Below are positions 19,209-36,321 of a stretch of DNA of 64,000 nt, piece after piece. A program made the position numbers and the translations under genes. Below the pieces are notes generated by a model that ran no database searches, was not told the DNA's origin, and saw only the letters and a program-made list of their open reading frames with translations. The stretch covers positions 4,518,501 through 4,582,500 of the forward strand of contig NZ_FNTF01000002.1 of assembly GCF_900105495.1 (NCBI RefSeq), read 5' to 3'. The first letter of the stretch is position 1; each line of letters starts with the position of its first letter. Origin of the DNA: Pseudomonas frederiksbergensis (lineage in GTDB: Bacteria > Pseudomonadota > Gammaproteobacteria > Pseudomonadales > Pseudomonadaceae).

Positions 19209-19799
19209 ATGAGTTTCGAAATTCGCAAGATCGTCAGCTATGTCGAAGAAACCTTTATCGAAGGCGGCAAGGCTACGGACAAGCCTGTGACCATGGTCGG
19301 GCTGGCCGTGGTGATGAAAAACCCTTGGTTGGGTCGCGGCTTTGTCGAAGACCTGAAGCCGGAAATTCGCGCCAACTGCTCTGACCTCGGTGCGCTGATG
19401 GTCGAGCGCCTGGTGGGCATCATCGGCGGCGCCGAGAAGATCGAGGCTTATGGCAAGGCCGCCGTAGTGGGCGCCGACGGTGAAATCGAGCACGCCTCCG
19501 CCGTGATCCATACCCTGCGCTTCGGCAACCATTACCGCGAAGCGGTGAAAGCCAAGAGTTACCTGAGCTTCACCAACAAGCGCGGCGGCCCGGGCACCTC
19601 GATTCAGATCCCGATGATGCACAAGGACGACGAAGGCCTGCGTTCGCACTACATCACCCTGGAAATGCAGATCGAAGACGCGCCGCGCGCCGATGAAATC
19701 GTCGTGGTTCTGGGTTGCGCCGATGGCGGCCGCCTGCACCCACGTATCGGCAACCGTTACATCGATCTCGAAGAGCTGGCCGCTGAAAACGCCCAGTAA
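19209..19799 (+). CDS. amino acid synthesis (AA_synth, PF06684) family protein
   Basis: 196 aa, full length for the AA_synth (former DUF1185) family. GGAG precedes the ATG at 19209. Characteristic segments include VTMVGLAVVMKNPWLGRGF near residue 28 and KAAVVGADGEIEHASAVIHT. The family has known folds but, as far as I know, no proven reaction. First gene of a long catabolic operon under a TGGTATACCA operator; it may act on a ring-opened nitrogenous intermediate, which is inference from neighbours only. Confidence 0.85.
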   Translation: MSFEIRKIVSYVEETFIEGGKATDKPVTMVGLAVVMKNPWLGRGFVEDLKPEIRANCSDLGALMVERLVGIIGGAEKIEAYGKAAVVGADGEIEHASAVIHTLRFGNHYREAVKAKSYLSFTNKRGGPGTSIQIPMMHKDDEGLRSHYITLEMQIEDAPRADEIVVVLGCADGGRLHPRIGNRYIDLEELAAENAQ

Positions 19800-19842
19800 T
19801 CAAGGTCGGTAAGAACAACAAAAAGGCATGCAGGAGCGCTCC

Positions 19843-20676
19843 ATGATTCGGCTCACCGCTGAACGCACCCCGGCTGGCACCAGTTACCTGGCGACCGGCC
19901 AAGGCCAGCCCGTGGTTTTGATCCACGGCGTGGGCCTGAACAAAGAAATGTGGGGCGGCCAGGTCGTTGGCCTGGCCACGAAGTACCGTGTGATTGCCTA
20001 CGACATGCTGGGTCATGGCGCCAGCCCGCGCCCGGAAAGCGGCACGCCCCTGCTCGGCTATGCCGACCAGTTGCTTGAACTGCTCGACCACCTGCAACTG
20101 CCTCAGGCGACGGTGATCGGCTTTTCCATGGGCGGGCTGGTGGCGCGGGCCTTTGCTTTGCATTACCCGCAACGCCTGCAAGGCCTGGTGGTGCTCAACA
20201 GCGTGTTCAATCGCAGCCCCGAACAGCGTGCTGGCGTTATCGCCCGCACCGCTCAAGCGGCCGAGCACGGACCGGACGCCAACGCCGAAGCCGCGCTATC
20301 GCGCTGGTTCAGCCGTGAATATCAGGCGGCCAACCCGGCGCAGATTGCGGCCTTGCGCCAAACCCTGGCAGACAATGACCCGCAGGGATACCTGACCACC
20401 TATGAGCTGTTTGCGACCCAGGACATGTACCGCGCTGACGATCTGGGCTGCATCCAAGTGCCGACGCTGATCGCCACCGGTGAACTGGACCCAGGTTCCA
20501 CACCGGAAATGGCCGAGCAATTGGCCGCACGCATTCCCGGCGCGACAGTTGCCGTGCTCGCCGAGCAGCGGCATATGATGCCCGTAGAATCACCGCGCCT
20601 GGTCAACCAGCTGCTGTTGGAGTTTCTCGACACGGTGCACTCCCGACAAAATCAAATAAAGGGGATCGTTGCATGA
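19843..20676 (+). CDS. alpha/beta hydrolase of the ring-degradation operon
   Basis: 277 aa from the ATG at 19843 (GGAG six bases upstream; an ATG at 19828 lacks one). Oxyanion-loop HGVG, nucleophile motif GFSMGG, acid in ATGELDPGSTPE and the C-terminal catalytic histidine in EQRHMMPVE complete the triad. By position with a flavin monooxygenase system and a succinate-semialdehyde dehydrogenase it is a candidate for the amide-cleaving step, analogous to TgnD of the Acinetobacter trigonelline pathway. It overlaps the next gene by 4 bp. Confidence 0.85.
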   Translation: MIRLTAERTPAGTSYLATGQGQPVVLIHGVGLNKEMWGGQVVGLATKYRVIAYDMLGHGASPRPESGTPLLGYADQLLELLDHLQLPQATVIGFSMGGLVARAFALHYPQRLQGLVVLNSVFNRSPEQRAGVIARTAQAAEHGPDANAEAALSRWFSREYQAANPAQIAALRQTLADNDPQGYLTTYELFATQDMYRADDLGCIQVPTLIATGELDPGSTPEMAEQLAARIPGATVAVLAEQRHMMPVESPRLVNQLLLEFLDTVHSRQNQIKGIVA

Positions 20677-22154
20677 CACTCGCACGCTTCCAGATGTGCA
20701 TCGGCGGTGAATGGGTCGATGCCCTCTCCGGCAAGACTTTTGAAAGTTTGAACCCCGCCCTGGCTCAAGCCTGGGCTGAATTACCCGATGCCGACGAAGC
20801 CGATGTCGAGCGCGCCGTGCAGGCTGCGCAGACGGCTTTCGACAGCCCGGCCTGGCGCGGTCTGACCGCCACCGCTCGCGGCAAACTGTTGCGCCGCCTC
20901 GGTGACCTGATCGCTGAAAACAAGGAGCATCTTGCGCAGCTGGAAAGCCGCGACAACGGCAAGCTGATTCGCGAAACCCGTGGTCAGGTCAGCTACTTGC
21001 CGGAGTTCTTCCACTACACCGCAGGCCTGGCGGACAAACTCGAAGGCGGCACCCTGCCCCTCGACAAGCCGGACCTGTTTGCCTACACCGTGCACGAAGC
21101 CATGGGCGTGGTTGCCGCGATCATTCCCTGGAACAGTCCGCTGTACCTGACCGCGATCAAGCTCGCCCCGGCCCTGGCGGCGGGCAACACCATCGTGATC
21201 AAACCATCGGAGCACGCCTCCGCCACCATTCTCGAACTGGCCCGTCTGGCGCTGGAAGCCGGCATCCCGCCGGGCGTGGTCAACGTCGTTACCGGCTACG
21301 GCCCAAACACCGGCGCCGCCCTCACCCGCCATCCGCTGGTGCGCAAAATCGCCTTCACCGGCGGTGCTGCCACTGCCCGGCATGTGGTGCGTAGCAGCGC
21401 TGAAAACTTCGCCAAGTTGTCGCTGGAACTGGGCGGCAAATCACCCAACATTATCTTTGCCGATGCCGACCTCGACAGCGCGATCAACGGTGCGATTGCC
21501 GGGATCTATGCAGCATCAGGCCAGAGCTGCGTTTCCGGCTCGCGGTTGTTGGTGCAGGACGAAATCTACGATGAGTTCGTCGATCGTCTGGTCGAACGTG
21601 CCAAGCGCATCCGCATCGGTAACCCGCAGGAAGACAGCAGCGAAATGGGCCCCATGGCCACCGCACAGCAACTGGCTGTGGTCGAAGGCCTGGTCGCCGA
21701 TGCCATCGCCGAAGGTGCGCGCCTGCGCCTGGGCGGCAAGCGTCCGCAAAATCTGGGCGATGGCTGGTTCTACGAGCCGACCCTTTTTGAATGCGACCGC
21801 AACTCCATGAAGATCATGCAGGAAGAAGTCTTCGGTCCGGTGGCCTCGGTCATCCGGTTCAAAGATGAAGCCGAAGCCCTGGCGATTGCCAACGACTCGC
21901 AGTTCGGCCTCGCCGCCGGTATCTGGACCCGCGACCTGGGCCGTGCCCATCGCCTGGCCCGGGACGTGCGCTCGGGGATTATCTGGGTCAATACCTACCG
22001 AGCCGTCTCGGCCATGGCGCCGATCGGCGGCTTCAAGAACAGCGGCTATGGACGCGAGAGCGGCATCGATTCGGTGCTGGCCTACACCGAGTTGAAAACG
22101 GTGTGGATCAACCTCTCTCAGGCACCCATGCCTGACCCCTTCGTGATGCGCTAG
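20673..22154 (+). CDS. NAD(P)-dependent aldehyde dehydrogenase
   Basis: 493 aa, normal length. Cofactor and catalytic motifs: IIPWNSPLYL near residue 150, FTGGAATARHV, LELGGKSPN with the active-site Glu near residue 255, and GQSCVSGSRLLV with the catalytic Cys near residue 289. Its ATG overlaps the hydrolase stop (ATGA). In the proposed pathway it would oxidise the aldehyde or hydroxylactone formed by ring opening, like TgnC. The exact substrate is unproven. Confidence 0.9.
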   Translation: MTLARFQMCIGGEWVDALSGKTFESLNPALAQAWAELPDADEADVERAVQAAQTAFDSPAWRGLTATARGKLLRRLGDLIAENKEHLAQLESRDNGKLIRETRGQVSYLPEFFHYTAGLADKLEGGTLPLDKPDLFAYTVHEAMGVVAAIIPWNSPLYLTAIKLAPALAAGNTIVIKPSEHASATILELARLALEAGIPPGVVNVVTGYGPNTGAALTRHPLVRKIAFTGGAATARHVVRSSAENFAKLSLELGGKSPNIIFADADLDSAINGAIAGIYAASGQSCVSGSRLLVQDEIYDEFVDRLVERAKRIRIGNPQEDSSEMGPMATAQQLAVVEGLVADAIAEGARLRLGGKRPQNLGDGWFYEPTLFECDRNSMKIMQEEVFGPVASVIRFKDEAEALAIANDSQFGLAAGIWTRDLGRAHRLARDVRSGIIWVNTYRAVSAMAPIGGFKNSGYGRESGIDSVLAYTELKTVWINLSQAPMPDPFVMR

Positions 22155-22166
22155 GAGACCGCCGAC

Positions 22167-22652
22167 ATGATCGAACCCGGCATTTACAAAGACGTCATGA
22201 GCTCGTTCCCATCCGGGGTCACGGTGGTCACCACCCTGGACCCGGACGGTGGCATCGTCGGCATCACCGCCAGCGCCTTCAGCGCCCTGTCGATTGATCC
22301 GGCACTGGTGCTGTTCTGCCCCAACTACGCCTCGGACACGTACCCGATCCTGCGTGACAGCAAGCAGTTCGCGATTCACCTGCTATCGGCCGACCAGACT
22401 GCCGAAGCGTATGCGTTTGCGGGCAAAGGCAAGGACAAGGCCAAAGGCATCGACTGGCACCTCAGCGAGCTGGGCAACCCGCTGTTGCGCAAAGCCACGG
22501 CGATCATCGAGTGCGAACTGTGGCGTGAATACGACGGCGGCGATCACGCGATCATTGTCGGCGCGGTGAAGAACCTGATTCTGCCCGAGCAACCGGTCAC
22601 GCCGATGATCTATCACAAAGGCAAGCTGGGCCCGCTGCCCACCCTGGCCTGA
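22167..22652 (+). CDS. flavin reductase, copy 1
   Basis: 161 aa of the non-flavoprotein flavin reductase family (HpaC/FRED type): FPSGVTVVTTLDPDGGIVGITASAFSALS near residue 12 and the C-terminal GGDHAIIVGAV. It reduces FMN or FAD with NAD(P)H for a partner monooxygenase. AGGAG lies upstream of the ATG. A close paralogue of equal length, with the same start MI-AIYK-VM-SFPSGVTV, lies at 34756-35241 beside the LLM monooxygenase. It is in an operon that contains no monooxygenase of its own. Confidence 0.92.
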   Translation: MIEPGIYKDVMSSFPSGVTVVTTLDPDGGIVGITASAFSALSIDPALVLFCPNYASDTYPILRDSKQFAIHLLSADQTAEAYAFAGKGKDKAKGIDWHLSELGNPLLRKATAIIECELWREYDGGDHAIIVGAVKNLILPEQPVTPMIYHKGKLGPLPTLA

Positions 22653-22678
22653 TGTTTATCTTCAGGGCGCAGGTCCAT

Positions 22679-22766
22679 GTGGGAGCGAGCCTGCTCGCGA
22701 TGACGGCAGCACATTCAACATCAATGTGAGTGACACACCGCTATCGCGAGCAGGCTCACTCCCACA
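22679..22766. repeat. Pseudomonas REP doublet (REPIN), type 1
   Basis: TGTGGGAGCGAGCCTGCTCGCGAT and its near inverse ATCGCGAGCAGGCTCACTCCCACA flank about 40 bases of unrelated sequence. This is the usual inverted pair of Pseudomonas REP elements. It sits between two genes of the same operon and could form a long stem in the mRNA. Confidence 0.88.
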
Positions 22767-22796
22767 TAGAGCGCCTCCACTTTCTTGGGAGCCGGC

Positions 22797-24272
22797 ATGA
22801 ACCCAGCAACCTCGCAACTGTTCCGCCAGCAAGCCTACATCGACGGCCAATGGCTGGATGCGCCCGATGGCGCCTGTCAGGACATTTTCAACCCGGCCAC
22901 CGGCGAAAAGATCGGCCAAGTGCCGAACCTTGGCGCCGCAGAAGCTCGTCAAGCCATCGCCGCCGCCAACAAAGCCTGGCCGACCTGGCGTGCTCTGACC
23001 GCCAAGGAACGCAGCCAGACTCTGAAACGCTGGCACGCGCTGATGATTGAAAATGCCGATGCGCTGGCAGAAATCCTCACCCTCGAACAAGGCAAGCCAC
23101 TGGCCGAAGCCAAGGGCGAAATCCTCTACGCGGCGAGTTTCATCGAGTGGTTCGCCGAAGAAGCCAAGCGCATCTACGGCGACACCATTCCCAGCCACAA
23201 AGGCGATGCACGCATTGTGGTCAGCAAGGAACCGATCGGCGTGGTTGCGGCCATCACCCCGTGGAATTTTCCGGCGGCGATGATCACCCGCAAGGCCGGC
23301 CCGGCGCTGGCGGCCGGTTGCCCGTGCATCGTCAAACCGGCACCGGAAACCCCGTTTTCGGCGCTGGCCATGGCCGCGTTGGCGGAACAGGCCGGGATTC
23401 CACCGGGCATTTTCAATGTGATCACCGGCGACGCCGTGGCCATCGGTGGCGAGCTGACCGCCAGCCCGCTGGTGCGCAAACTGTCGTTCACCGGTTCCAC
23501 CGCCATAGGCAAGTTGCTGATGGCGCAGTGCGCGCCAACCCTGAAAAAAGTCTCACTGGAACTGGGAGGCAACGCGCCCTTCATCGTGTTCGACGATGCT
23601 GATCTGGAGCGTGCCGTAGAAGGTGCGCTGATCGCCAAGTTCCGCAATGCCGGGCAAACCTGTGTCTGTGCCAATCGCTTCCTGGTGCAGAGCGGCATTC
23701 ATGATGCTTTTGCCACGCGACTGGCCGAGCGCGTGGCGCAACTGAACGTCGGCAGTGGCTTCGAGGCAGGTGTCACTCAAGGTCCGCTGATTAACGAACG
23801 CGCGGTGGCCAAAGTCGAAGACCACGTTCAGGACGCCCTCTTCCAAGGCGCCCGACTGCTTTGCGGCGGCGAACGCCATGCACTGGGGCACGGATTCTTC
23901 CAGCCAACCGTGCTGGCCGGCGTGACCGGTGACATGAAAGTCGCTCAAGAAGAAACCTTCGGCCCGCTGGCTGCCGTGTTCCGCTTCGACACCGAAGCCG
24001 AAGCTGTGCAGTTGGCCAACGACACCGAATTCGGCCTCGCGGCTTACTGCTACACCCGCGATCTGGGCCGCGCCTGGCGCATGAGTGAAGCGCTGGAATA
24101 CGGCATGGTCGGGATCAACGAAGGGCTGATTTCCACCGAAGTCGCGCCCTTTGGCGGGATCAAATCCTCGGGTCTCGGTCGTGAAGGATCCAAGTACGGC
24201 ATCGAAGATTATCTGGAGCTCAAATACACCTTGATGGGCGGGCTCGACGATTTTGGGAGCACACCGCGATGA
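22797..24272 (+). CDS. NAD(P)-dependent succinate-semialdehyde dehydrogenase
   Basis: 491 aa, start at 22797 with GGGAG six bases upstream. It has the SSADH-type motifs ITPWNFPAAMITRKAGPALAAG, FTGSTAIGKLLM, LELGGNAPFIVFDDADL and the active site GQTCVCANRFLVQ with adjacent cysteines, as in GabD. It converts succinate semialdehyde to succinate, the exit to the TCA cycle, and corresponds to TgnE in the trigonelline scheme. It is separated from the flavin reductase gene only by a REP doublet. Confidence 0.92.
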   Translation: MNPATSQLFRQQAYIDGQWLDAPDGACQDIFNPATGEKIGQVPNLGAAEARQAIAAANKAWPTWRALTAKERSQTLKRWHALMIENADALAEILTLEQGKPLAEAKGEILYAASFIEWFAEEAKRIYGDTIPSHKGDARIVVSKEPIGVVAAITPWNFPAAMITRKAGPALAAGCPCIVKPAPETPFSALAMAALAEQAGIPPGIFNVITGDAVAIGGELTASPLVRKLSFTGSTAIGKLLMAQCAPTLKKVSLELGGNAPFIVFDDADLERAVEGALIAKFRNAGQTCVCANRFLVQSGIHDAFATRLAERVAQLNVGSGFEAGVTQGPLINERAVAKVEDHVQDALFQGARLLCGGERHALGHGFFQPTVLAGVTGDMKVAQEETFGPLAAVFRFDTEAEAVQLANDTEFGLAAYCYTRDLGRAWRMSEALEYGMVGINEGLISTEVAPFGGIKSSGLGREGSKYGIEDYLELKYTLMGGLDDFGSTPR

Positions 24273-24658
24273 GCAATGAAAAGTACGAAAAAGGCCTGAA
24301 AATCCGCACCCAGGTGCTGGGCGAAGCCTACGTGAACCGCTCCATCGAAAACGCCGACGACTTCACCCGGCCTCTTCAGGAGATGGTCACCGAGTACTGC
24401 TGGGGCCACGTCTGGGGCCGTGAGGGCTTGTCGCTTAAAGAACGCAGCATGATAAACTTGGCAATGATTTCGGCCCTCAACCGGCCTCACGAACTCAAGC
24501 TGCATGTACGCGGTGCCTTGCGTAACGGGCTGAGTCGTGAACAAATACGCGAAATTTTGCTTCAAGTCGGTATTTATTGCGGTGTCCCCGCTGCCGTAGA
24601 CAGTTTCCGGCTCGCCCGTGAAGCCTTCGCCGAAGCCGATGCCGAGGCCTCCAGTTAA
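24269..24658 (+). CDS. carboxymuconolactone decarboxylase family protein
   Basis: 129 aa, full-length single-domain CMD/AhpD-like protein: KYEKGLKIRTQVLGEAYVNRS at the N-terminus, then LSLKERSMINLAMISALNRPHELKLHVRGALRNG and EILLQVGIYCGVPAAVDSF. It lacks the CxxC of AhpD, so a decarboxylase/isomerase-like role is more likely than peroxidase. Its ATG overlaps the SSADH stop. Its place in the pathway is unknown. Confidence 0.9.
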   Translation: MSNEKYEKGLKIRTQVLGEAYVNRSIENADDFTRPLQEMVTEYCWGHVWGREGLSLKERSMINLAMISALNRPHELKLHVRGALRNGLSREQIREILLQVGIYCGVPAAVDSFRLAREAFAEADAEASS

Positions 24659-24745
24659 CCCTTGGCTGTTTTTGATGACCTGAGCACGATGATCCTGGAT
24701 CGAAGTGCTCTTTTTGCATGGACAGCCACACTCAGAGCGGACCCC

Positions 24746-26064
<1,319 letters not shown>

Positions 26065-26070: not shown

Positions 26071-26364
26071 CTAGGGCGCCACGCCCTCGACAATGATCAC
26101 CTCGGCCCGGGCCACGCCCGCGCGGTGCCGTTTCGCCTCTTGATATTGCTCACTGTGATAACAGGCCAGCGCCTGCTCGTAAGAATCGAACTCGATGACC
26201 ACGCTGCGTTGTGGGGTCGGCCGACCTTCCATCGCTTCGCTGCGCCCGCCGCGTGCCAACAGCTTCCCGCCATATAAAGCGAACGCCGCCGGGGCGCGTT
26301 GGGTGTATTGGCTGTATTGATCGGGGTCGGTGACATCCACGTGAGCAATCCAGTACGCCTTCAT
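26071..26364 (-). CDS. DUF1330 family protein
   Basis: 97 aa, full length for DUF1330, a dimeric alpha-beta barrel fold: AYWIAHVDVTDPDQYSQYT at the start and EGRPTPQRSVVIEFDSYEQALACYHS at the centre. AGAGGT precedes the ATG. The family has no established reaction. It is convergent with the Nudix gene and divergent from ribBA; operator B at 26391-26402 lies in the shared 71-bp promoter region, so it is probably part of the same regulon. Confidence 0.85.
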   Translation of the reverse strand: MKAYWIAHVDVTDPDQYSQYTQRAPAAFALYGGKLLARGGRSEAMEGRPTPQRSVVIEFDSYEQALACYHSEQYQEAKRHRAGVARAEVIIVEGVAP

Positions 26365-26435: not shown

Positions 26436-27545
26436 ATGGCCTTCAACAGCATCGAAGAAATCATCGAAGATTACCGACTAGGCAAGATGGTGCTTCTAGT
26501 CGATGACGAGGACCGGGAAAACGAAGGCGATCTGCTGCTCGCCGCCGACCGTTGCACCGCCGAGGCCATCAGCTTCATGGCCCGCGAAGCCCGGGGCCTG
26601 ATCTGCCTGACCCTGACCGACGCGCACTGCCAGCGCCTCGGTCTGGAGCAGATGGTGCCGAGCAATGGCAGTGTGTTCAGCACTGCGTTCACCGTGTCCA
26701 TCGAGGCCGCCGTGGGCGTGACCACCGGTATTTCCGCCGCCGATCGGGCGCGTACGGTGGCCGCCGCCGTCGCTGCCGATGCTGGTCCCACGGACATAGT
26801 GCAGCCCGGCCATATCTTCCCGCTTCGCGCCAAGGAAGGCGGCGTGCTGACCCGCGCCGGACACACCGAAGCCGGTTGCGACCTCGCGCGCCTGGCCGGC
26901 TTCACTCCCGCATCGGTGATCGTCGAGGTAATGAACGACGACGGCACCATGGCCCGCCGCCCTGACCTGGAAGTCTTCGCGCGCAAGCATGGGATCAAGA
27001 TCGGCACCATCGCCGACCTGATCCACTATCGCCTGAGCACCGAGCACACCGTGGTGCGCATCGGTGAACGCGAATTGCCCACGGTGCACGGGACGTTCCG
27101 GCTGATCACCTTTGAGGATCGCATTGAAGGTGGCGTCCACATGGCGATGGTCATGGGGGACATTCGTCGGGAAGAACCGACCTTGGTGCGGGTGCACGTG
27201 ATCGACCCGCTGCGGGACCTGGTGGGCGCCGAATACAACGGCCCGTCCAACTGGACATTGTGGGCGGCGCTGCAACGAATCGCTGAAGAAGGCTGCGGCG
27301 TGGTGGTCGTACTGGCCAATCATGAGTCATCGCAAGCGTTGCTGGAACGCGTGCCCCAACTCACACAGCCGCCACGGCAATTCAACCGATCGCAATCGCG
27401 CATCTATTCTGAAGTAGGGACCGGTGCGCAGATTCTGCAAGATCTGGGCGTGGGCAAGTTGCGTCATCTCGGCCCACCGCTGAAATACGCAGGCTTGACC
27501 GGTTACGACCTGGAAGTGGTCGAGAGCATCCCGTTCACCGGATGA
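26436..27545 (+). CDS. ribBA: RibBA-like 3,4-dihydroxy-2-butanone-4-phosphate synthase
   Basis: 369 aa. The N-terminal RibB domain is intact (DDEDRENEGDLLLAADR near residue 25, the HTEAGCDLARLAGF segment near 140) and makes the four-carbon riboflavin precursor. The C-terminal GTP-cyclohydrolase-II-like domain lacks the zinc cysteine cluster (GD--GSxxCDC) and is probably inactive, as is common in Pseudomonas RibBA proteins. The gene is unlinked from other rib genes and lies behind operator B, which suggests extra flavin supply for the flavin-dependent monooxygenase system of the same regulon. Confidence 0.9.
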   Translation: MAFNSIEEIIEDYRLGKMVLLVDDEDRENEGDLLLAADRCTAEAISFMAREARGLICLTLTDAHCQRLGLEQMVPSNGSVFSTAFTVSIEAAVGVTTGISAADRARTVAAAVAADAGPTDIVQPGHIFPLRAKEGGVLTRAGHTEAGCDLARLAGFTPASVIVEVMNDDGTMARRPDLEVFARKHGIKIGTIADLIHYRLSTEHTVVRIGERELPTVHGTFRLITFEDRIEGGVHMAMVMGDIRREEPTLVRVHVIDPLRDLVGAEYNGPSNWTLWAALQRIAEEGCGVVVVLANHESSQALLERVPQLTQPPRQFNRSQSRIYSEVGTGAQILQDLGVGKLRHLGPPLKYAGLTGYDLEVVESIPFTG

Positions 27546-27854: not shown

Positions 27855-28880
27855 ATGGTGTTGAACAAAGGTGTAACCGCAATGCTTTTTGCGGGTTTGT
27901 TGAGCATGACCAGTCAGGCGCTGATGGCGGCTGAAAGCGTCAACTTCGTCAGCTGGGGCGGCAGCACCCAGGATGCACAGAAGCAGGCCTGGGCCGATCC
28001 GTTCAGCAAGGCCAGCGGCATCACCGTGGTCCAGGATGGTCCTACCGACTACGGCAAACTCAAAGCCATGGTCGAAAGCGGCAACGTGCAATGGGACGTG
28101 GTCGACGTCGAAGCTGATTTCGCCCTGCGCGCGGCGGCTGAAGGCTTGCTCGAACCCCTCGATTTTTCGGTGATCCAGCGCGACAAAATCGACCCGCGTT
28201 TCGTCTCTGACCATGGCGTCGGCTCGTTCTACTTCTCCTTCGTCCTCGGTTACAACGAAGGCAAGCTCGGTGCCGGCAAACCTCAGGATTGGTCCGCGCT
28301 GTTCGACACCAAGACCTATCCCGGCAAACGCGCCCTCTACAAATGGCCAAGCCCCGGCGTACTCGAACTGGCTTTGCTGGCCGACGGCGTTGCCGCCGAC
28401 AAGCTGTATCCGCTGGATCTGGATCGCGCCTTCAAGAAACTCGACACCATCAAGAAAGACATCGTCTGGTGGGGCGGCGGCGCGCAGTCCCAGCAGTTGC
28501 TGGCCTCGGGTGAAGCGAGCCTGGGGCAGTTCTGGAACGGCCGCATCTACGCCCTGCAACAGGATGGCGCGCCGGTGGGCGTGAGCTGGAAACAGAACCT
28601 GGTCATGGCCGACATTCTGGTCATCCCAAAAGGCTCGAAAAACAAGGCCGCAGCCATGAAGTTTTTGGCCCATGCCAGCAGCGCCAAAGGACAAGCTGAC
28701 TTCTCCAACCTGACCGCCTATGCGCCGGTCAACGTCGACAGCGTAGCGCGCCTGGATAAGGTGCTCGCCCCCAACCTGCCGACTGCCTACGCAAAGGATC
28801 AAATCACTCTTGATTTCGCGTACTGGGCCAAAAACGGTCCGGCCATCGCGACACGGTGGAACGAATGGCTGGTCAAATGA
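27855..28880 (+). CDS. ABC transporter substrate-binding protein, spermidine/putrescine (PotD) type
   Basis: 341 aa with a Sec signal peptide (cleavage near MAAES, about residue 25). The mature part begins VNFVSWGGSTQDAQKQAW, typical of the PotD/PotF-like group, with DWSALFDTKTYPGKRALYKWP in the middle. GAGGGCG precedes the ATG. It captures a cationic or amine-type solute in the periplasm. Together with the two permeases and the ATPase it forms a complete importer behind operator C. A quaternary amine or pyridinium compound would suit the family and the regulon, but that is inference. Confidence 0.9.
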   Translation: MVLNKGVTAMLFAGLLSMTSQALMAAESVNFVSWGGSTQDAQKQAWADPFSKASGITVVQDGPTDYGKLKAMVESGNVQWDVVDVEADFALRAAAEGLLEPLDFSVIQRDKIDPRFVSDHGVGSFYFSFVLGYNEGKLGAGKPQDWSALFDTKTYPGKRALYKWPSPGVLELALLADGVAADKLYPLDLDRAFKKLDTIKKDIVWWGGGAQSQQLLASGEASLGQFWNGRIYALQQDGAPVGVSWKQNLVMADILVIPKGSKNKAAAMKFLAHASSAKGQADFSNLTAYAPVNVDSVARLDKVLAPNLPTAYAKDQITLDFAYWAKNGPAIATRWNEWLVK

Positions 28881-29821
28881 AAATGACGGCAACAGCGTCC
28901 CGTCAACCTACTCCGACCGGGAGCGCCGCTGGCGCTACCGGGTCGGTTACCGGCAAGGCGGCTGTGATGAACCAATCCCCTTCCCTGGCACAGCGCTGGC
29001 GCGGTTCAAGCAACCTGATCCCCGCCCTGCTGTTTCTCGGCCTGTTCTTTCTGGCGCCGCTGATTGGTCTGCTGCTGCGGGGCGTACTGGAGCCGGTTCC
29101 GGGCCTGGGTAACTACGAACAACTGTTCGCCAACTCGGCTTACGCGCGGGTCTTGCTCAACACCTTCTCGGTGGCCGGGTTGGTGACGCTGTTCAGTCTG
29201 CTGCTGGGCTTTCCGCTGGCGTGGGCAATCACGCTGGTGCCTCGTGGCTGGGGCCGGTGGGTCCTCAATATTGTGCTGCTGTCGATGTGGACCAGCCTGC
29301 TGGCGCGGACCTACTCCTGGCTGGTGCTGTTGCAGGCGTCCGGTGTAATCAACAAAGCGCTGATGGCCATGGGCATCATCGATCAACCACTGGAAATGGT
29401 GCACAACCTGACCGGCGTGGTGATCGGCATGAGTTACATCATGATCCCGTTCATCGTGCTGCCGTTGCAGGCAACCATGCAGGCCATCGACCCGATGATT
29501 CTGCAGGCCGGTTCGATTTGCGGCGCCAGCCCCTGGACCAACTTCTTCCGGGTGTTCCTGCCGCTGTGCCGGCCGGGGCTGTTCTCCGGTGGCTTGATGG
29601 TGTTCGTGATGTCCCTCGGTTACTACGTGACCCCGGCGCTGCTGGGCGGCGCGCAGAACATGATGCTGCCCGAATTCATCATTCAGCAGGTGCAGTCGTT
29701 CCTCAATTGGGGACTGGCCAGCGCCGGCGCAGCCTTGCTGATCGTGATCACGCTGGTGTTGTTCTACTTCTACCTGAAGCTCCAGCCGGAATCCCCGGTT
29801 GGTGCCAGCAACGCGAGGTAA
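28877..29821 (+). CDS. ABC transporter permease, PotB type
   Basis: 314 aa, with an ATG overlapping the stop of the binding-protein gene. A 35-residue Ser/Thr/Gly-rich cytoplasmic leader (with an alternative start MNQSPSLAQRW about 30 residues in) precedes six hydrophobic segments and the EAA loop (LQAGSICGASPWTNFFRVFLP). First of two membrane subunits of the importer. Confidence 0.9.
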   Translation: MKMTATASRQPTPTGSAAGATGSVTGKAAVMNQSPSLAQRWRGSSNLIPALLFLGLFFLAPLIGLLLRGVLEPVPGLGNYEQLFANSAYARVLLNTFSVAGLVTLFSLLLGFPLAWAITLVPRGWGRWVLNIVLLSMWTSLLARTYSWLVLLQASGVINKALMAMGIIDQPLEMVHNLTGVVIGMSYIMIPFIVLPLQATMQAIDPMILQAGSICGASPWTNFFRVFLPLCRPGLFSGGLMVFVMSLGYYVTPALLGGAQNMMLPEFIIQQVQSFLNWGLASAGAALLIVITLVLFYFYLKLQPESPVGASNAR

Positions 29822-29827: not shown

Positions 29828-30637
29828 ATGCTCCTGACCCCCAATGCCATGAGCCGGCGCATGCGTTTCGGCCTGTATTTCACGACCGGTTTGATCGCGC
29901 TGTTCCTGCTGCTGCCGATCGTGTTCATCGTGCTGCTGTCCTTCGGCTCCTCCCAGTGGCTGGTGTTTCCACCGCCGGGCTGGACGCTGAAATGGTACGG
30001 CCAGTTCTTCTCCAATCCCGATTGGATGAACGCCGCCATGGCCAGCCTCAAGGTAGCGGTGCTGACCACGATCTGCGCTGTCGCCCTGGGTTTGCCAACT
30101 GCTTTTGCCTTGGTGCGCGGGCGCTTTCCGGGACGGGAAATGCTCTACGGTCTGTTCACCCTGCCGATGATCGTGCCGCTGGTGATCATCGCCGTGGCGG
30201 TGTACGCGCTGTTTCTCAAACTCGGCTACACCGGGACGATGTTCGCTTTCGTGGTCAGCCACGTCATCGTGGCGCTGCCGTTCACCATCATCTCGATCAT
30301 CAACTCGCTGAAGCTGTTCGATCAGTCGATCGAGGATGCCGCGGTGATCTGCGGCGCTTCGCGACTGCAAGCGGTGTTCAAGGTGACCTTCCCGGCGATT
30401 CGCCCGGGCATGGTCGCCGGTGCGCTGTTCGCGTTCCTGGTGTCGTGGGATGAAGTGGTACTGAGCGTGATGATGGCCAGCCCGACCCTGCAAACCCTTC
30501 CCGTGAAAATGTGGACCACCTTGCGCCAGGACCTGACGCCCGTGATCGCCGTCGCCTCGACGCTGCTGATCGGCCTCTCGGTATTGGTCATGGTCATCGC
30601 CGCCGCCGTTCGCCGGCGCAATCAAATCAGCGCCTGA
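29828..30637 (+). CDS. ABC transporter permease, PotC type
   Basis: 269 aa, six predicted membrane segments with the EAA motif EDAAVICGASRLQAVFKVTFP in the cytoplasmic loop. GAGGT lies upstream of the ATG and the gene starts 7 bp after the first permease gene. Second membrane subunit of the importer. Confidence 0.92.
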   Translation: MLLTPNAMSRRMRFGLYFTTGLIALFLLLPIVFIVLLSFGSSQWLVFPPPGWTLKWYGQFFSNPDWMNAAMASLKVAVLTTICAVALGLPTAFALVRGRFPGREMLYGLFTLPMIVPLVIIAVAVYALFLKLGYTGTMFAFVVSHVIVALPFTIISIINSLKLFDQSIEDAAVICGASRLQAVFKVTFPAIRPGMVAGALFAFLVSWDEVVLSVMMASPTLQTLPVKMWTTLRQDLTPVIAVASTLLIGLSVLVMVIAAAVRRRNQISA

Positions 30638-30654: not shown

Positions 30655-31809
30655 ATGAGTGCCGTCATCAAAGATTCCGCGCAGCAGAACGACAAACCGC
30701 TGGTCAGCCTGCGCAACCTGAACAAGTACTACGGCGACTTCGCTGCCGTGGACGACATCTCGCTGGACATCAAGGACGGTGAATTCCTGACCTTCCTCGG
30801 CTCCAGCGGCTCTGGCAAAAGCACTACCCTGTCGATGCTCGCCGGCTTCGAAACCCCGAGCAGCGGCGAGATCCAGGTCAATGGCCAATCACTGGTCAAC
30901 GTACCGCCGCACAAGCGCGACATCGGCATGGTGTTCCAGCGTTATTCGCTGTTCCCACATTTGTCGGTGCGCGAGAACATCGCGTTCCCCCTGGCCATCC
31001 GCAAACTGGCCGCCAGCGAGCGTGAGCGCCGGGTCGACGCCATGCTCAAACTGGTACAGCTTGAGCAATTTGCGCATCGCCGCCCTTCACAACTTTCCGG
31101 TGGTCAGCAGCAACGGGTGGCGATCGCTCGGGCGCTGGTTTATGAGCCACGCATTCTGTTGATGGACGAACCCCTCGGTGCCTTGGACAAAAAGCTGCGC
31201 GAAGACTTGCAAGATGAACTGCGCCAGCTGCATCGGCGTCTGGGCATCACCATCATCTACGTGACCCACGACCAGGAAGAAGCCATGCGTCTGTCTCAGC
31301 GCATCGCGATTTTCAGCCACGGCAAGATCGTTGGATTGGGCAGTGGTTTTGACCTTTATCAGAATCCGCCGAATGCTTTCGTTGCTTCGTTTCTGGGCAA
31401 CTCCAACTTCCTCAAACTCAAGGCTCAGGGTAATGCGGTGGCTTCGTTTGAAGGTCAGCCTCTGTCGATTCGCCTGACCGCAGGGTTGCAGACCGATCAG
31501 GATGTTTTGCTGATGGTGCGGCCGGAGAAAGCGTTGGCCTTGAGCGTCGAGCAAGCCGCCCTGGAACCTTTGGCGGCGGGCTGGAATGAAGTGTCGGCCA
31601 CGGTCGTTGAAGTGCTGTTTCTTGGCGAAAGCCAGACTTGCAGTGTGGTGACCTCGGGCGGCACATCGATGACCGTCAAGGCCCTCTCTGCCGCCGGTAT
31701 GCCGCTCAAGGCTGGCGACCCGGTGCGAGTGCGCTGGGCGACGGCGGATGCGTGCGTGTACACCGAATGGGCGGAAAGCGATCTGAACAAGGCCGCTGGC
31801 GCGCATTAA
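30655..31809 (+). CDS. ABC transporter ATP-binding protein, PotA type
   Basis: 384 aa from the ATG at 30655 with AGGAG upstream. Walker A GSSGSGKST near residue 60, Q-loop MVFQRYSLFPHLSV, signature [15 protein letters not shown], Walker B ILLMDEPLGALD and the H-loop VTHDQEEAM, followed by a C-terminal TOBE regulatory domain (VLLMVRPEKALAL, VEVLFLGESQTCSVV). Energises the importer; last gene before a strong terminator. Confidence 0.94.
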   Translation: MSAVIKDSAQQNDKPLVSLRNLNKYYGDFAAVDDISLDIKDGEFLTFLGSSGSGKSTTLSMLAGFETPSSGEIQVNGQSLVNVPPHKRDIGMVFQRYSLFPHLSVRENIAFPLAIRKLAASERERRVDAMLKLVQLEQFAHRRPSQLSGGQQQRVAIARALVYEPRILLMDEPLGALDKKLREDLQDELRQLHRRLGITIIYVTHDQEEAMRLSQRIAIFSHGKIVGLGSGFDLYQNPPNAFVASFLGNSNFLKLKAQGNAVASFEGQPLSIRLTAGLQTDQDVLLMVRPEKALALSVEQAALEPLAAGWNEVSATVVEVLFLGESQTCSVVTSGGTSMTVKALSAAGMPLKAGDPVRVRWATADACVYTEWAESDLNKAAGAH

Positions 31810-31854
31810 TGCAAAAGCCCACCCCGGTGGGTCCGGATTCGCGTATCACCCTCG

Positions 31855-31891
31855 GGTCACCACAGCGTCGGGCTGTGGTGACCTTTTTTTT
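31855..31891 (+). terminator. rho-independent terminator of the ABC operon
   Basis: GGTCACCACAG and CTGTGGTGACC form a perfect 11-bp stem with a 7-base loop, followed by eight T residues. Forty-six bases after the ATPase stop. Confidence 0.95.
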
Positions 31892-32050
31892 GCCGAGCAT
31901 TTTGGATCAAAGGAAGCTCACCTAAAATTCCCCGGCGACACTTCGTAAATAACGAATCATTGATAAGGAATAATCGATTTTTCTAAACCCTCATCCTCTC
32001 GCTAGCATGGCCCTGTCGGCTCCAGAATACGTCCAGCCAAGGAGAGCGAC

Positions 32051-33022
32051 ATGCAGCCCATAAGCATCGGCGAACCCTGGATGTGGGTCGCCTTCATCGT
32101 CTTCGTCGTCGCCATGCTGGCTTTGGATCTGTTTGTCTTCGGCGGGCGCAAGGCGCATCGGGTATCGTCGCGCGAGGCGACATGCTGGGTAATTGCCTGG
32201 TGCGCGCTGGCGCTGGTCTTTGCAGGATTGCTGCGCTGGTACTTGAATGATGAGCTCGGTCCCGAAATCGCCCAGCGCAAAATGCTGGAGTTCCTCACCG
32301 GTTACCTGATCGAACAGTCGCTGTCGATCGACAACATGTTCGTCTTCGTGATGATTTCCGGCTACTTCGCCGCGCCGCCGGAGTTGCAGCGCCGGATGTT
32401 GCTGTACGGTGTGCTCGGGGCAATCGTGATGCGGGGGGCGATGATTTTCGCCGGCGTGTGGCTGGTGTCGCAGTTCGCGTGGTTGCTGTATGTGTTCGGT
32501 GTGTTATTGATCATCACCGGGATCAAGATGCTGGCATTCGCGCATCAGCGGCCTGATCTCGAAAAAAACCCTATATTGCGCTGGATACGCGGCCATCTGC
32601 GTGTCACTGGTGAGTTTCATGGCGAACGTTTTTTTGTGGTGCAAGACGGTCGACTCTGGGCGACGCCATTGTTTCTGGTACTTGTGCTGATCGAAGCCAG
32701 CGACCTGATGTTCGCGATCGACAGCATCCCGGCGATCTTCGCTATCACCACCGATCCGTTCATTGTGTTCACATCGAACATCTTCGCAATCATGGGCTTG
32801 CGGGCGCTGTACTTCCTGCTGGCCGACATGGCTGACCGCTTTCACTTGCTCAAATATGGTTTGGCGATCGTACTGGTGTTCATCGGCACCAAGATGACGC
32901 TGATGCCGTGGTTTCACCTGCCAGTTGAATGGTCGCTGGCGATTGTCGGCGGGATCATTCTGACTTCGGTGCTGTTGAGCCTTATCTTGCCCCCCAAGGA
33001 AGATCGAATGCGATCCCTGTAG
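32051..33022 (+). CDS. TerC family integral membrane protein
   Basis: 323 aa with about nine hydrophobic segments and the TerC hallmarks: LTGYLIEQSLSIDNMFVFVMI near residue 78 and VLVLIEASDLMFAIDSIPAIFAI near 213, with conserved acidic residues in the membrane. The family includes Alx/MntX-type Mn(II) exporters and tellurite-resistance-associated TerC. AAGGAG precedes the ATG. It has its own promoter region after a terminator, and no GntR-type operator, so it is probably unrelated to the flanking regulon. No yybP-ykoY riboswitch is visible upstream. Confidence 0.9.
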   Translation: MQPISIGEPWMWVAFIVFVVAMLALDLFVFGGRKAHRVSSREATCWVIAWCALALVFAGLLRWYLNDELGPEIAQRKMLEFLTGYLIEQSLSIDNMFVFVMISGYFAAPPELQRRMLLYGVLGAIVMRGAMIFAGVWLVSQFAWLLYVFGVLLIITGIKMLAFAHQRPDLEKNPILRWIRGHLRVTGEFHGERFFVVQDGRLWATPLFLVLVLIEASDLMFAIDSIPAIFAITTDPFIVFTSNIFAIMGLRALYFLLADMADRFHLLKYGLAIVLVFIGTKMTLMPWFHLPVEWSLAIVGGIILTSVLLSLILPPKEDRMRSL

Positions 33023-33024
33023 GG

Positions 33025-34437
33025 TCAGTCCGTGTATCCCCACCGCGCAGCTCTGCTCTGCCGGGTTTGCCCGCGTGTAGCCAGGCAGTAATACAACGGA
33101 CACGTCACCACCAGCCCCACCAGCCACGAAAGATCCGCACCCTCGACCAGGTTGGCGTAGGGCCCGACATACAACGAAGTATTGGCAAACGGCAACTGCA
33201 CAAGGATGCCGATGAAGTACGCAACGATTGCATGCGGATTGAAACGCCCATAAATCCCGCCATCCGCCCGAAAGATCGATGCGATGTCGTAGCTGCCGCG
33301 CTTGATCACATAAAAGTCGATCAGGTTGATCGAAGCCCATGGCACCAGTACCAGCAACAGCGCCAGGATCAAGCCGATGAACTGCGTGATGAAATCCGCC
33401 GAAGCCCCCAACGCCACCAGGCAGCAGCCCACCAACACCACGCTGGACAACACCACCCGCAGCTTGATGCTCGGCGTCCATTGGCTGGCGAAGGTTTGGA
33501 TCGAGGTAATAATCGACAGCACCGCGCCATACAGATTCAAGGCGTTGTGGCTGATGATATTGAGCAAAAACAGCACCATCAGAATCGGCCCCAGCCAACC
33601 GGTGGACTGTTTCACTGCATCCATCGCTTCAGTGCCTTCCGGCGTCGCCAGTACCGCCACCGCACCGAAGGTGAACGACAGAATGGTGCCCAGGGTCGCG
33701 CCCAGATAAGTGGCCCAGAACGGCTTGGCAATGCCGATATCCGCCGGCAGGTAACGGGAGTAATCCGAGACATATGGCGAGAAACTGATCTGCCAGATGA
33801 CCCCCAGCGACACCGTGGCCAGCCAGCCCGACAGGTTAAAACCGCCGCGACTGTAAAAGTCCGCCGGCAATTCATGGGCGAAGATGTAAAAAAAACCGGC
33901 GAGCAAGGCGCTGCCCATGACCCAGGTGCCGATGCGATTGAGGGTATGAATGAAGCGGTAACCGATCACTCCGATCGCGGTAGCACTGAGGGCGCCGATG
34001 ATGATGCTCGCCGGCACCGGAACCGAAGGCACGATGCCGACAATCGATTTGCCGGCCAGCACGATGTTGGAGATGAAAAAACCGATGTAGATCAGCGCAG
34101 CGAAGAACACGATCAGCAGCGCACCATAACGGCCGAACTGACCACGGCTCTGCACCATTTGCGGAATTCCCATGCGCGGCCCCTGGGCCGATGCGAGGGC
34201 AATCACCAAACCGCCGACCATATGCCCGAGGACAATCGCCAGCAGCCCCCAGAACAGGTCAAGGTGAAATACCTGAACCACCATCGCGCCGGTGACGATC
34301 GGCAACGGCGCAATATTGGTGCTGAACCATAGAGTGAACAGATCGCGGGCCTTCCCATGGCGTTCCGCGAGAGGGACGTAATCGACCGTGTGATTCTCGA
34401 TCAACGGGTCTTGCCGGGACATCTGGGACATGTGCAT
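33025..34437 (-). CDS. NCS1 family permease (cytosine/purine/related compounds)
   Basis: 470 aa with about 12 hydrophobic segments. The N-terminal region WFSTNIAPLPIVTGAMV and the LGHMVGGLVIALASAQGPRMGIPQM segment are typical of CodB-type NCS1 symporters, which take up nucleobases, hydantoins or vitamin-like N-heterocycles with Na+ or H+. Start at 34437 (ATG at 34431 is an alternative). The promoter region carries GntR-type operator D, which links this permease to the monooxygenase regulon. An N-heterocyclic substrate is a reasonable inference. Confidence 0.9.
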   Translation of the reverse strand: MHMSQMSRQDPLIENHTVDYVPLAERHGKARDLFTLWFSTNIAPLPIVTGAMVVQVFHLDLFWGLLAIVLGHMVGGLVIALASAQGPRMGIPQMVQSRGQFGRYGALLIVFFAALIYIGFFISNIVLAGKSIVGIVPSVPVPASIIIGALSATAIGVIGYRFIHTLNRIGTWVMGSALLAGFFYIFAHELPADFYSRGGFNLSGWLATVSLGVIWQISFSPYVSDYSRYLPADIGIAKPFWATYLGATLGTILSFTFGAVAVLATPEGTEAMDAVKQSTGWLGPILMVLFLLNIISHNALNLYGAVLSIITSIQTFASQWTPSIKLRVVLSSVVLVGCCLVALGASADFITQFIGLILALLLVLVPWASINLIDFYVIKRGSYDIASIFRADGGIYGRFNPHAIVAYFIGILVQLPFANTSLYVGPYANLVEGADLSWLVGLVVTCPLYYCLATRGQTRQSRAARWGYTD

Positions 34438-34520
34438 GAACTCGAGTTTGTCTGATCTTATATTTGTATGAAGCCAAACCGGGGGCGCTCTTTGGTAACC
34501 CCTCAGAAGCGCACCATATT

Positions 34521-34532
34521 ATGGTATTCCAA
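34521..34532. promoter_or_regulatory. GntR-type operator D (NCS1 permease)
   Basis: ATGGTATTCCAA, preceded by ATATT; the same 12 bases, inverted, form the first half of operator C. Eighty-four bases upstream of the permease start. Confidence 0.78.
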
Positions 34533-34693
34533 CATTTTCACAAGACTGATCCGTTGCTTGAAAGGCAAACTGATCCGCTTTTCCAAGGGCTTCCGGCTCT
34601 CAACCTTGCGTTAAAAGCCCCGTAAACATTAAGCCTTATCGCCGCAGGACGCGTTTATCGGCAAAGATAAAAAGCCCTTGCAAACTATGTATT

Positions 34694-34705
34694 ACGGTAT
34701 ACCAT
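34694..34705. promoter_or_regulatory. GntR-type operator E (flavin reductase 2 / LLM operon)
   Basis: ACGGTATACCAT inside TATTACGGTATACCATCAGA, one base from operator A. Fifty bases upstream of the flavin reductase 2 start. Confidence 0.8.
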
Positions 34706-34755
34706 CAGACCTATAAATTCATAAAAACCATGCCGCAGCGCCCGAGGACCCTCCA

Positions 34756-35241
34756 ATGATCGATGCCGCCATCTACAAACAAGTCATGGGCTCGTTCCCG
34801 TCCGGGGTGACGGTGATCACCACGCTGGATGATGAGGGTCAAATTGTCGGCCTCACCGCCAGCGCGTTCAGCTCGCTGTCCATGGACCCGGCCCTGGTGC
34901 TGTTCTGCCCCAACTACAGCTCCGATTCCTATCCGGTACTGATCAAGAACAAACGCTTTGCCATTCACGTGCTTTCTGGCGGCCAGCAAAGCGAAGCCTA
35001 TGCCTTCGCCCGTAAAGGCAAAGACAAAGCTCAAGGAATCGAATGGACGTTGAGCGAGCTGGGCAATCCGATTCTGGCCAATGCCACGGCCGTCATCGAA
35101 TGTGAGCTATGGCGTGAATATGAAGGTGGCGACCACGCGATCATGGTTGGCGCCGTGAAGAACCTGATAGTGCCGCAGCACACCGCCGGTCCGCTGGTGT
35201 ACTGCCACGGCAAAATGGGCGCCCTGCCCGTCCTCGCCTGA
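34756..35241 (+). CDS. flavin reductase, copy 2 (partner of LLM monooxygenase)
   Basis: 161 aa, clearly paralogous to the reductase at 22167-22652: both begin MI-(E/D)..IYK-VM-SFPSGVTV and end in (K)GALPVLA or GPLPTLA. Non-flavoprotein flavin reductase family; supplies reduced FMN. Located 36 bp before the LLM monooxygenase gene, as tgnA is paired with tgnB in Acinetobacter. Confidence 0.93.
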   Translation: MIDAAIYKQVMGSFPSGVTVITTLDDEGQIVGLTASAFSSLSMDPALVLFCPNYSSDSYPVLIKNKRFAIHVLSGGQQSEAYAFARKGKDKAQGIEWTLSELGNPILANATAVIECELWREYEGGDHAIMVGAVKNLIVPQHTAGPLVYCHGKMGALPVLA

Positions 35242-35277
35242 ACCGACAGTCAATAACAAAGATCCGAGGTAAGCGTC

Positions 35278-36321
35278 ATGAAGTTTTCCCTGTTCGTGCA
35301 CATGGAACGTTGGGACGAAAGTGTCAGCCACCGCCAGTTGTTCGAAGACCTGACCGAACTGACCCTGATGGCCGAAGCCGGTGGTTTCAGCACCGTCTGG
35401 ATCGGCGAACACCACGCCATGGAATACACCATCTCGCCAAGCCCGATGCCATTGCTGGCCTATCTGGCCGCCAAGACCACCACCATTCACCTTGGCGCCG
35501 GCACCATCATCGCGCCGTTCTGGCATCCGTTGCGGGTAGCTGGCGAGTGCGCGTTGCTGGACGTGATCAGTAACGGTCGCATGGAAGTCGGCCTGGCCCG
35601 TGGCGCCTACCAAGTGGAATTCGACCGTATGGCCGGCGGCATGCCCGCTTCCTCAGGCGGTCAAGCCCTGCGGGAAATGGTTCCGGTAGTGCGCGCCCTG
35701 TGGCAAGGCGACTATGCCCACGACGGTGATATCTGGAAGTTCCCTACCTCCACCAGCGTGCCCAAACCGATCCAGAAGCCCAACCCGCCGATGTGGATCG
35801 CCGCCCGCGACCCGGACTCGCACAACTTCGCCGTGGCCAACGGCTGCAACGTGATGGTCACGCCACTGATGAAGGGCGACGAAGAAGTCCTCGACCTGAA
35901 GAACAAGTTCCAGGCCGCCCTCGACAACAACCCGGACGTACCGCGTCCGCAATTGATGGTGCTGCGTCACACCCACGTGCATGCGGCCGATGACCCGGAA
36001 GGCTGGAAAGTCGGTGCCAAGGCGATCTCGAAGTTCTACCGCACCTTCGATGCCTGGTTCGGCAACAAGGAAGTGCCGGTCAACGGCTTCCTGGCGCCGA
36101 GCCCGGAAGAGAAATTCGCTGCTCGCCCGGAGTTCGAACTCGAAAGCCTGCACAAGACCGCCATGATCGGCACGGCAGAGGAAATCATCCCGCGCATCAA
36201 GTACTACCAGGAACTGGGCGTCGATGAGTTCAGCTTCTGGTGCGATAACAGCTTGCCTCACTCCGAGAAGAAAAAATCCCTGGAGCTGTTCATCAAGCAG
36301 GTGGTACCGGCGTTTCGCTAA
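35278..36321 (+). CDS. LLM-class flavin-dependent monooxygenase, TgnB-like
   Basis: 347 aa, full-length bacterial-luciferase-like oxygenase: MKFSLFVHMERWDES at the start, AEAGGFSTVWIGEHHAMEY near residue 36, and LGAGTIIAPFWHPLRVAGECALLDVISNGRMEVGLARG near 81, the standard FMNH2-binding TIM-barrel layout. It uses reduced flavin from the adjacent reductase and O2 to hydroxylate or open its substrate. With the alpha/beta hydrolase, two aldehyde dehydrogenases and SSADH of the same regulon it matches the enzyme classes of trigonelline (N-methylnicotinate) ring opening. Substrate is inferred, not shown. Confidence 0.9.
   Translation: MKFSLFVHMERWDESVSHRQLFEDLTELTLMAEAGGFSTVWIGEHHAMEYTISPSPMPLLAYLAAKTTTIHLGAGTIIAPFWHPLRVAGECALLDVISNGRMEVGLARGAYQVEFDRMAGGMPASSGGQALREMVPVVRALWQGDYAHDGDIWKFPTSTSVPKPIQKPNPPMWIAARDPDSHNFAVANGCNVMVTPLMKGDEEVLDLKNKFQAALDNNPDVPRPQLMVLRHTHVHAADDPEGWKVGAKAISKFYRTFDAWFGNKEVPVNGFLAPSPEEKFAARPEFELESLHKTAMIGTAEEIIPRIKYYQELGVDEFSFWCDNSLPHSEKKKSLELFIKQVVPAFR

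Follow-up and report, generated by a model that had tools for sequence, protein, structure and literature searches.

We analysed a 64,000-nucleotide stretch of the Pseudomonas frederiksbergensis genome (G000:C2:4518501-4582500), hereafter the window. Judged from sequence, the genes at its positions 19209-36321 quite probably form a locus for the breakdown of a trigonelline-type substrate, that is, an N-methylpyridinium carboxylate and most likely trigonelline, which would work like the Tgn pathway of Acinetobacter baylyi. The locus is real; it represents a sister form of the pathway for trigonelline, and most of its apparently extra genes are explained by the known one. Its surroundings also fit a trigonelline-type substrate.

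The trigonelline pathway TgnA-F of A. baylyi ADP1 was reportedly described by Perchat et al. in 2018, and its four-step chemistry serves as background here. The A. baylyi locus (L028), taken from the type-strain genome, was among the best 80 loci listed. The LLM flavin-dependent oxygenase of the window (hereafter LLM) was 50.6% identical to A. baylyi TgnB over 346 residues (E 4e-130), and the best solved LLM structure matched it with 99 bits only. The TgnC- and TgnE-like dehydrogenases (51.8 and 69.8%) each scored best with the matching A. baylyi homologue. NCBI gives the label "flavin-dependent trigonelline monooxygenase" to Acinetobacter relatives of the A. baylyi oxygenase.

Genes of the locus and their A. 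baylyi counterparts

Gene classes were assigned with Pfam and NCBIfam profiles, and the percentages come from direct protein comparison. The features are given below in window positions.

19209..19799, plus: AA_synth protein (PF06684, DUF1185), TgnF counterpart; Pfam 236 bits, 55.9% to the A. baylyi locus protein
19828..20676, plus: alpha/beta hydrolase in a TgnD-like position; 34.3% to TgnD over 265 residues
20673..22154, plus: aldehyde dehydrogenase (ALDH), TgnC-like; 51.8% to TgnC, 36.8% to TgnE
22167..22652, plus: flavin reductase FR1, 161 aa; PF01613 145 bits, 38.5% to the TgnA N-terminal domain
22797..24272, plus: succinate-semialdehyde dehydrogenase (SSADH), TgnE-like; TIGR01780 739 bits (cut-off 646), 69.8% to TgnE
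24269..24658, plus: carboxymuconolactone-decarboxylase-like (CMD, PcaC-like) protein; TIGR02425 155.0 bits (cut-off 155.7)
24662..25498, plus: GntR/FCD regulator; profile match, 35.1% to the GntR of the A. baylyi locus
25495..26064, plus: Zn-ribbon Nudix hydrolase, counterpart of the TgnA C-terminal domain; profile match and hhalign
26071..26364, minus: DUF1330 protein; PF07045 125.8 bits, 49% homologue in the A. baylyi locus
26436..27545, plus: RibBA (riboflavin precursor synthesis); NF009132 812 bits (cut-off 693)
27855..28880, plus: ABC solute-binding protein (SBP), Pf622/Atu4243 family; 93.7% over 315 residues to the Pf622 part of 6DGV
28856..29821, plus: ABC permease 1; PF00528, 58.7% to the Sinorhizobium meliloti cluster permease
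29828..30637, plus: ABC permease 2; PF00528, 50.4% to the S. meliloti cluster permease
30655..31809, plus: ABC ATPase (open reading frame from 30511; start inferred); PF00005 and TOBE_2, 48.2% to the S. meliloti ATPase
31854..31884, plus: terminator-like hairpin, 13 pairs and a T run; pattern match only
33025..34437, minus: NCS1 permease; PF02133 152 bits, 52.7% to the NCS1 of the A. baylyi locus
34756..35241, plus: flavin reductase FR2, 161 aa; PF01613 148 bits, 36.9% to the TgnA N-terminal domain
35278..36321, plus: LLM flavin-dependent oxygenase, sister of TgnB; 50.6% to A. baylyi TgnB

All gene classes named in the initial annotation, DUF1330 included, sit within this span. The correspondence to TgnA-E that it described was clear in the similarity of the TgnB, TgnC and TgnE homologues. 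For the LLM this similarity went above the family level, while that of the hydrolase to TgnD was hardly above it. Of the six genes it had counted as additions to the Tgn scheme, the second flavin reductase and the PotD-type ABC importer, which is of the Pf622 kind, are real differences. The other four (AA_synth, CMD, DUF1330 and NCS1) are all found in A. baylyi's own tgn locus and so are no longer unexplained. Its list lacked the Nudix and RibBA genes, and its trigonelline interpretation is partly supported. The DUF1185 (AA_synth) protein is named TgnF, and described as stimulating TgnE, in a passage of PMC7913881. The CMD-like protein was 77.0% identical to the A. baylyi protein that comes after TgnE, and the SSADH and CMD genes overlap by 4 bases in both organisms. 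No match to a porin was found within window positions 15001-40000.

TgnA and its relatives have about 310 residues, and the short reductases FR1 and FR2 are 70.8% identical to each other. In two scanned examples of the TgnA type, the C-terminal domain matched no Pfam family. It aligned over its full length with the Nudix family of the window (hhalign probability 99.9%, E 3e-35, 23% identity), and a control comparison of the TgnA reductase domain with the Nudix family gave 0.2%. Because the Nudix protein matches the C-terminal domain, TgnA is split in the window, and this link assigns a family to the previously unassigned C-terminal half of TgnA. Read by eye, the Nudix box is intact in the window protein and lost in the TgnA domain. 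Since Nudix and RibBA occur here and a riboflavin kinase occurs in the Arthrobacter cluster, the Nudix protein may serve flavin supply or flavin sensing; RibBA is a probable flavin supplier.

By analogy with A. baylyi we infer the substrate, the transporter ligand and the chemistry, the last from the work on that organism. The NCS1 permease and/or the Pf622-type ABC importer would take up the zwitterion, and FR1 and FR2 would supply reduced flavin to the LLM, which would open the ring with no prior hydroxylation. The TgnC-like dehydrogenase would oxidise the aldehyde or lactone, and the hydrolase in the TgnD position would release formate, methylamine and CO2, with succinate semialdehyde remaining. 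The TgnE-like SSADH, aided by the TgnF-like AA_synth protein, would make succinate. RibBA and the Nudix protein plausibly supply flavin mononucleotide.

Oxygenase clade, core module and substrate

In a midpoint-rooted LLM tree of 44 rows, the window set (20 rows) and the TgnB set (18 rows) were separate, with support of 100/99 each. The window set contained Pseudomonas and its relatives, Nitrincola and actinobacteria, and the TgnB set included second LLMs of Burkholderiales. The window LLM lies in its own clade beside TgnB, and we therefore call it a sister version and not TgnB itself.

The core module is of general occurrence. In 80 of the 82 TgnB-type loci, matches to AA_synth, hydrolase, reductase and ALDH lay together in the stretch fetched around the LLM, a count in which a few matches belong to a second module of the same stretch, as in L044. 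The same four genes were present in all seven loci whose LLM is 37-44% identical to that of the window, and in 9 of 11 further loci. Transport genes were less constant in the TgnB-type loci: NCS1 was present in 43/82, a Pf622-type binding protein in 35/82, and one or both in 64/82. Three Caballeronia loci (L044, L046 and L048) hold two divergently oriented LLM modules each, one TgnB-type (82-83% to TgnB) and one at 57-60%; they offer a natural pair for testing substrate change.

The distribution was then taken from 249 genomes of the window's genus, evenly drawn from a larger group, with LLM matches at E 1e-60. A window-type LLM (80-100% identity) was present in 139 of them, including one partial and one split copy (G059 and G093). 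A 42% paralogue stood alone in 2 genomes and beside a window-type LLM in 4. No listed match lay between 43% and 80% identity, so no TgnB-type copy was seen. The arms of the Pseudomonas locus are often distant: of 22 stretches of 20 kb fetched around the LLM, just 6 contained AA_synth as well. The genus totals were nevertheless 140 for AA_synth, 139 for the LLM and 141 for the binding protein, and the three genes had one shared state in 246/249 genomes. The exceptions were G236 (73% complete), without an AA_synth match, and G089 and G225, without an LLM. The contigs of the last two carry other locus parts (L290 and L291); that of G089 ends just past the binding protein, and the ABC genes of G225 are near a contig end. 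The JGI name "flavin-dependent trigonelline monooxygenase" stood on 4 of the best 120 of 2021 LLM protein matches, and we take this naming to be similarity-based and to carry no evidential weight.

The second, distant LLM (42-43% to that of the window) occurs in six genus genomes (G061, G245, G132, G142, G057 and G221), and in the loci fetched from the first four (L166-L169) it is found together with AA_synth, reductase, ALDH, hydrolase, CMD and SSADH matches. In G093 (C1:1585072-1586107) the LLM is interrupted and lies in two open pieces, with AA_synth and the binding protein still in place, an apparent case of pathway decay.

Genes of the N-methylglutamate (methylamine) type lie near the locus in some related genomes, which points to an N-methylated substrate. 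In G609, a genome of the window's family, they stop roughly 4 kb short of a window-type cluster and comprise GmaS, three Mgs-like genes, MgdA, MgdC and MgdD, accompanied by PurU and, by eye, FolD; among the Mgd genes the search covered MgdA, MgdC and MgdD. The Mgs and Mgd names were assigned by gene order. Among the NCBIfam models, TIGR03105 (GmaS) and PurU were over their cut-offs, the glutamate-synthase-like and sarcosine-oxidase-like matches were under theirs, and two proteins had no match. The dehydrogenase genes adjoin tgn in A. baylyi and in L026, L027 and L030 (4 of the 16 Acinetobacter loci fetched). MgdC was present in 56 of the 249 genus genomes, of which 51 had the LLM, compared with 88 of the 193 genomes lacking MgdC (Fisher 2e-10). 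It was within 30 kb of the LLM or the SBP in 30 of the 56.

Several results weigh against reading the locus as a trigonelline pathway. The window LLM did not group with TgnB in the 44-row tree, and the number of TgnB-invariant residues kept did not separate its clade beyond the expectation from overall identity. Burkholderiales loci can carry two LLMs about 60% identical (L044, L046 and L048), so divergence of this size can go with a second module. The SSADH scored 815 bits with the general GabD model (cut-off 828) and the CMD-like protein fell narrowly under the PcaC model cut-off; their high identity to A. baylyi is therefore weaker evidence. With TgnD the hydrolase shares just 34% identity. 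In the other 12 of the 16 Acinetobacter loci the dehydrogenase genes were not seen within the fetched stretch. When phylogeny was considered, the association of MgdC with the LLM was weak (of 12 pairs, 6.5 went the same way, 0.1 went opposite ways and 5.4 did not differ; median p 0.03, range 0.002-0.25). In the window genome (G000) a close MgdC was not found (best 35%), so methylamine use is not supported there. No growth or enzyme data for the window-type oxygenase clade were found in the literature searched.

We consider it unlikely that the pathway acts on a different pyridine, whether another N-methylated one (homarine, N-methylisonicotinate or 1-methylnicotinamide) or one that lacks the methyl group, such as pyridine. 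The separate LLM clade (51% to TgnB), the distant hydrolase and the duplicated LLM modules of Burkholderiales all argue for such a substrate, as does the Arthrobacter member, in which a tautomerase occurs, no CMD is annotated and the permease is just 28% identical. A bacterial pyridine (Pyr) pathway exists in Arthrobacter, and the literature search listed no paper on it. On the other hand, the SSADH and CMD share 70-77% identity with their A. baylyi counterparts, though near general family models, and the last steps thus look alike. The methylamine-type genes nearby fit an N-methyl substrate better than an unmethylated pyridine. With homarine, cleavage of the ring at the same bond should yield 2-oxoglutarate and not succinate semialdehyde, and a section of PMC8269262 argues that TgnAB action on it is unlikely. 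A wholly different substrate, for example a nucleobase-like or betaine compound, with only the module architecture in common with Tgn, is very improbable. The module genes do accompany LLMs as distant as 37-44%, but the accessory set of GntR, NCS1, CMD, DUF1330 and SSADH is also common to the A. baylyi locus.

Trigonelline, an alkaloid abundant in plants and coffee, is also present in marine plankton. Its marine occurrence is discussed in part of PMC8269262. If the sister pathway is truly what 139 of the 249 genus genomes carry, trigonelline use would be a common trait, and several "hypothetical" genes would be explained.

The Pf622-type importer and GABA

The SBP of the window belongs with Pf622, the scaffold of the iGABASnFR brain sensors. 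It keeps all eight residues of the gamma-aminobutyric acid (GABA) site (W9, T13, F100, F102, W202, R205, D228 and Y264), as these are listed in section 7 of PMC12999171, where Y102 of iGABASnFR2 arose by mutation. The 54 SBPs from fetched LLM loci had the same site residues, except at position 102 (F or Y) and in one truncated sequence. The F102Y change of iGABASnFR2, in Pf622 numbering, is the natural residue in most SBPs from TgnB-type loci. Aromatic side chains account for five of the eight site residues, and a pyridinium ring would fit well among them. We propose that the Pf622-type importer brings in the pathway substrate, probably trigonelline. The further proposal is that Pf622 itself would be part of a trigonelline-pathway importer, with trigonelline or a close N-methylpyridinium carboxylate as native ligand instead of GABA; we see it as evenly balanced. 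GABA binding would then be a by-product, because trigonelline resembles ring-closed GABA analogues such as nipecotic acid.

Published binding data stand against this proposal. Pf622 and Atu4243 bind GABA, as stated in portions of PMC12999171 and PMC6829864; Atu4243 is described as GABA-specific, and one part of a review has GABA as the sole interactor of Pf622. Other figures favour the proposal. In PMC12999171, F101L is given as a ten-fold gain in affinity, and a review table has a value of 9 for the sensor, which we read as micromolar. From these figures the unchanged sensor would be at about 90 micromolar, a value for the sensor construct and not for the free protein. By comparison, the values given for three P. 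aeruginosa GABA-binding proteins are 0.29, 0.58 and 2.3 micromolar. The word trigonelline is absent from the main text of PMC12999171, and it was therefore not among the compounds tried there.

The competing explanation is an ordinary GABA importer, which is nearby only since GABA breakdown also ends in succinate semialdehyde. We regard it as doubtful. The reported GABA binding of Pf622 and Atu4243 and the eight conserved site residues of the window SBP speak for it, as may eight Pseudomonas plasmid records with a relative of the SBP. Against it, the SBP follows the LLM through the genus: of the 249 genomes, 139 had both, none the LLM only, 2 the SBP only and 108 neither. A GABA transaminase was over the cut-off in 243 of the same 249, and the importer is therefore not following GABA breakdown. 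G073 and G082, which have the SBP and LLM, gave no GABA transaminase match at E 1e-150. The association held when phylogeny was considered. A gyrB tree was made from 80 genomes, 40 with and 40 without the LLM, hand-picked from those listed, with the two importer-only genomes in the second group. The LLM label needed 22 changes on this tree, and in 16 supported independent pairs the SBP followed the LLM in about 14.5, went against it in 0 and did not differ in 1.5 (median p 6e-5).

Co-occurrence without adjacency argues in the same direction. In 38 hand-picked genomes with both genes on one contig, they were more than 30 kb apart in 24 and more than 100 kb in 17, and in 9 genomes MgdC was within 30 kb of the SBP but not of the LLM. 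Plasmid records with the SBP numbered 250 and those with a TgnB-like LLM 271, led by Rhizobium (135 and 133) and then Sinorhizobium (72 and 72). Among the matches listed for both, the two genes lay 2.5-12.5 kb apart in 18 of 18 plasmid records.

A second SBP, 62-67% identical to that of the window, is near the LLM in some genus genomes (L157, L158, L159, L160, L161 and L287), and the same binding-site residues were present in five of these loci examined. If Pf622 is a subunit of a trigonelline importer, iGABASnFR sensors could respond to trigonelline, which would matter wherever alkaloids enter an experiment from the diet or the culture medium, and trigonelline biosensors could be derived from the locus.

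Surroundings, related clusters and known systems

The genes run from AA_synth through hydrolase, ALDH, FR1, SSADH, CMD, GntR, Nudix and DUF1330 (minus strand) to RibBA, followed by the four-gene ABC importer, TerC, NCS1 (minus strand), FR2 and LLM. From AA_synth to Nudix the plus-strand genes overlap or have short gaps, and the largest gap is between FR1 and SSADH. The span is not a single operon: DUF1330 and NCS1 face the other way, TerC is interposed and a terminator-like hairpin follows the ABC genes. The TerC gene is apparently unrelated to the locus. Terminator-like sites numbered 19 in the stretch against 18.0 expected, and the hairpin at 31854-31884 was the longest of them. The FR1-SSADH gap (22677-22767) contains REP-like sequences of the GTGGGAGCGAGCCTGCTCGCGAT type as an inverted pair, which looks like a Pseudomonas REP doublet. 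The start of the SSADH was reassigned from TTG 22785 to ATG 22797, and translation of the GntR/FCD regulator probably starts downstream of the open reading frame start at 24662. The hydrolase is PcaD/RutD-like with scores under both cut-offs, and is 34.8% identical to the S. meliloti and 40.2% to the Arthrobacter cluster hydrolase. Upstream of the locus a DUF3604 protein is encoded at 14799-17015 (720 bits). Downstream, past a LysR gene, an SDR dehydrogenase, an MFS permease and a split transketolase pair (37458-41662) probably form a separate sugar or polyol locus.

The pSymA cluster of S. meliloti (L017) contains AA_synth, hydrolase, reductase, LLM, ALDH, NIPSNAP and an ABC importer. The importer adjoining the module is of the same family as in the window (SBP 61%, permeases 59 and 50%), whereas the LLM is on the TgnB side, at 72% to TgnB and 51% to the window. 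NCS1 and CMD were not found in the fetched stretch. A NIPSNAP gene occurs in some rhizobial and related loci (L017 12516-12842; L088; L171) without a DUF1330 match. NIPSNAP and DUF1330 proteins may both be dimeric alpha-beta-barrels, and the two are possibly interchangeable.

The cluster on plasmid pDCT5 of Arthrobacter dokdonellae (L016) shares with the window an LLM at 78.7% identity and the Nudix, GntR, AA_synth, hydrolase, ALDH and SSADH genes. It differs in that a riboflavin kinase replaces RibBA and in having a tautomerase, two AA_synth genes and another NCS1-type permease. Its reductase (6490-7428, minus strand) is fused to an N-terminal SnoaL domain and not to a C-terminal Nudix-like one.

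Compared with Pf622 and Atu4243, the window SBP shows a close likeness in overall identity and in its GABA site, but it is encoded and co-occurs with a probable pyridine ring-opening pathway. The locus shares with the A. baylyi Tgn system the same gene classes, including AA_synth/TgnF, CMD-like, DUF1330, NCS1 and GntR, and the overlapping SSADH-CMD pair; N-methylglutamate-type genes adjoin the A. baylyi locus and are also near some window-type loci. The window differs from A. baylyi in that its LLM falls in a clade of its own, TgnA is split into short reductases in two copies and a separate Nudix protein with an intact box, and RibBA and the Pf622-type ABC importer are added.

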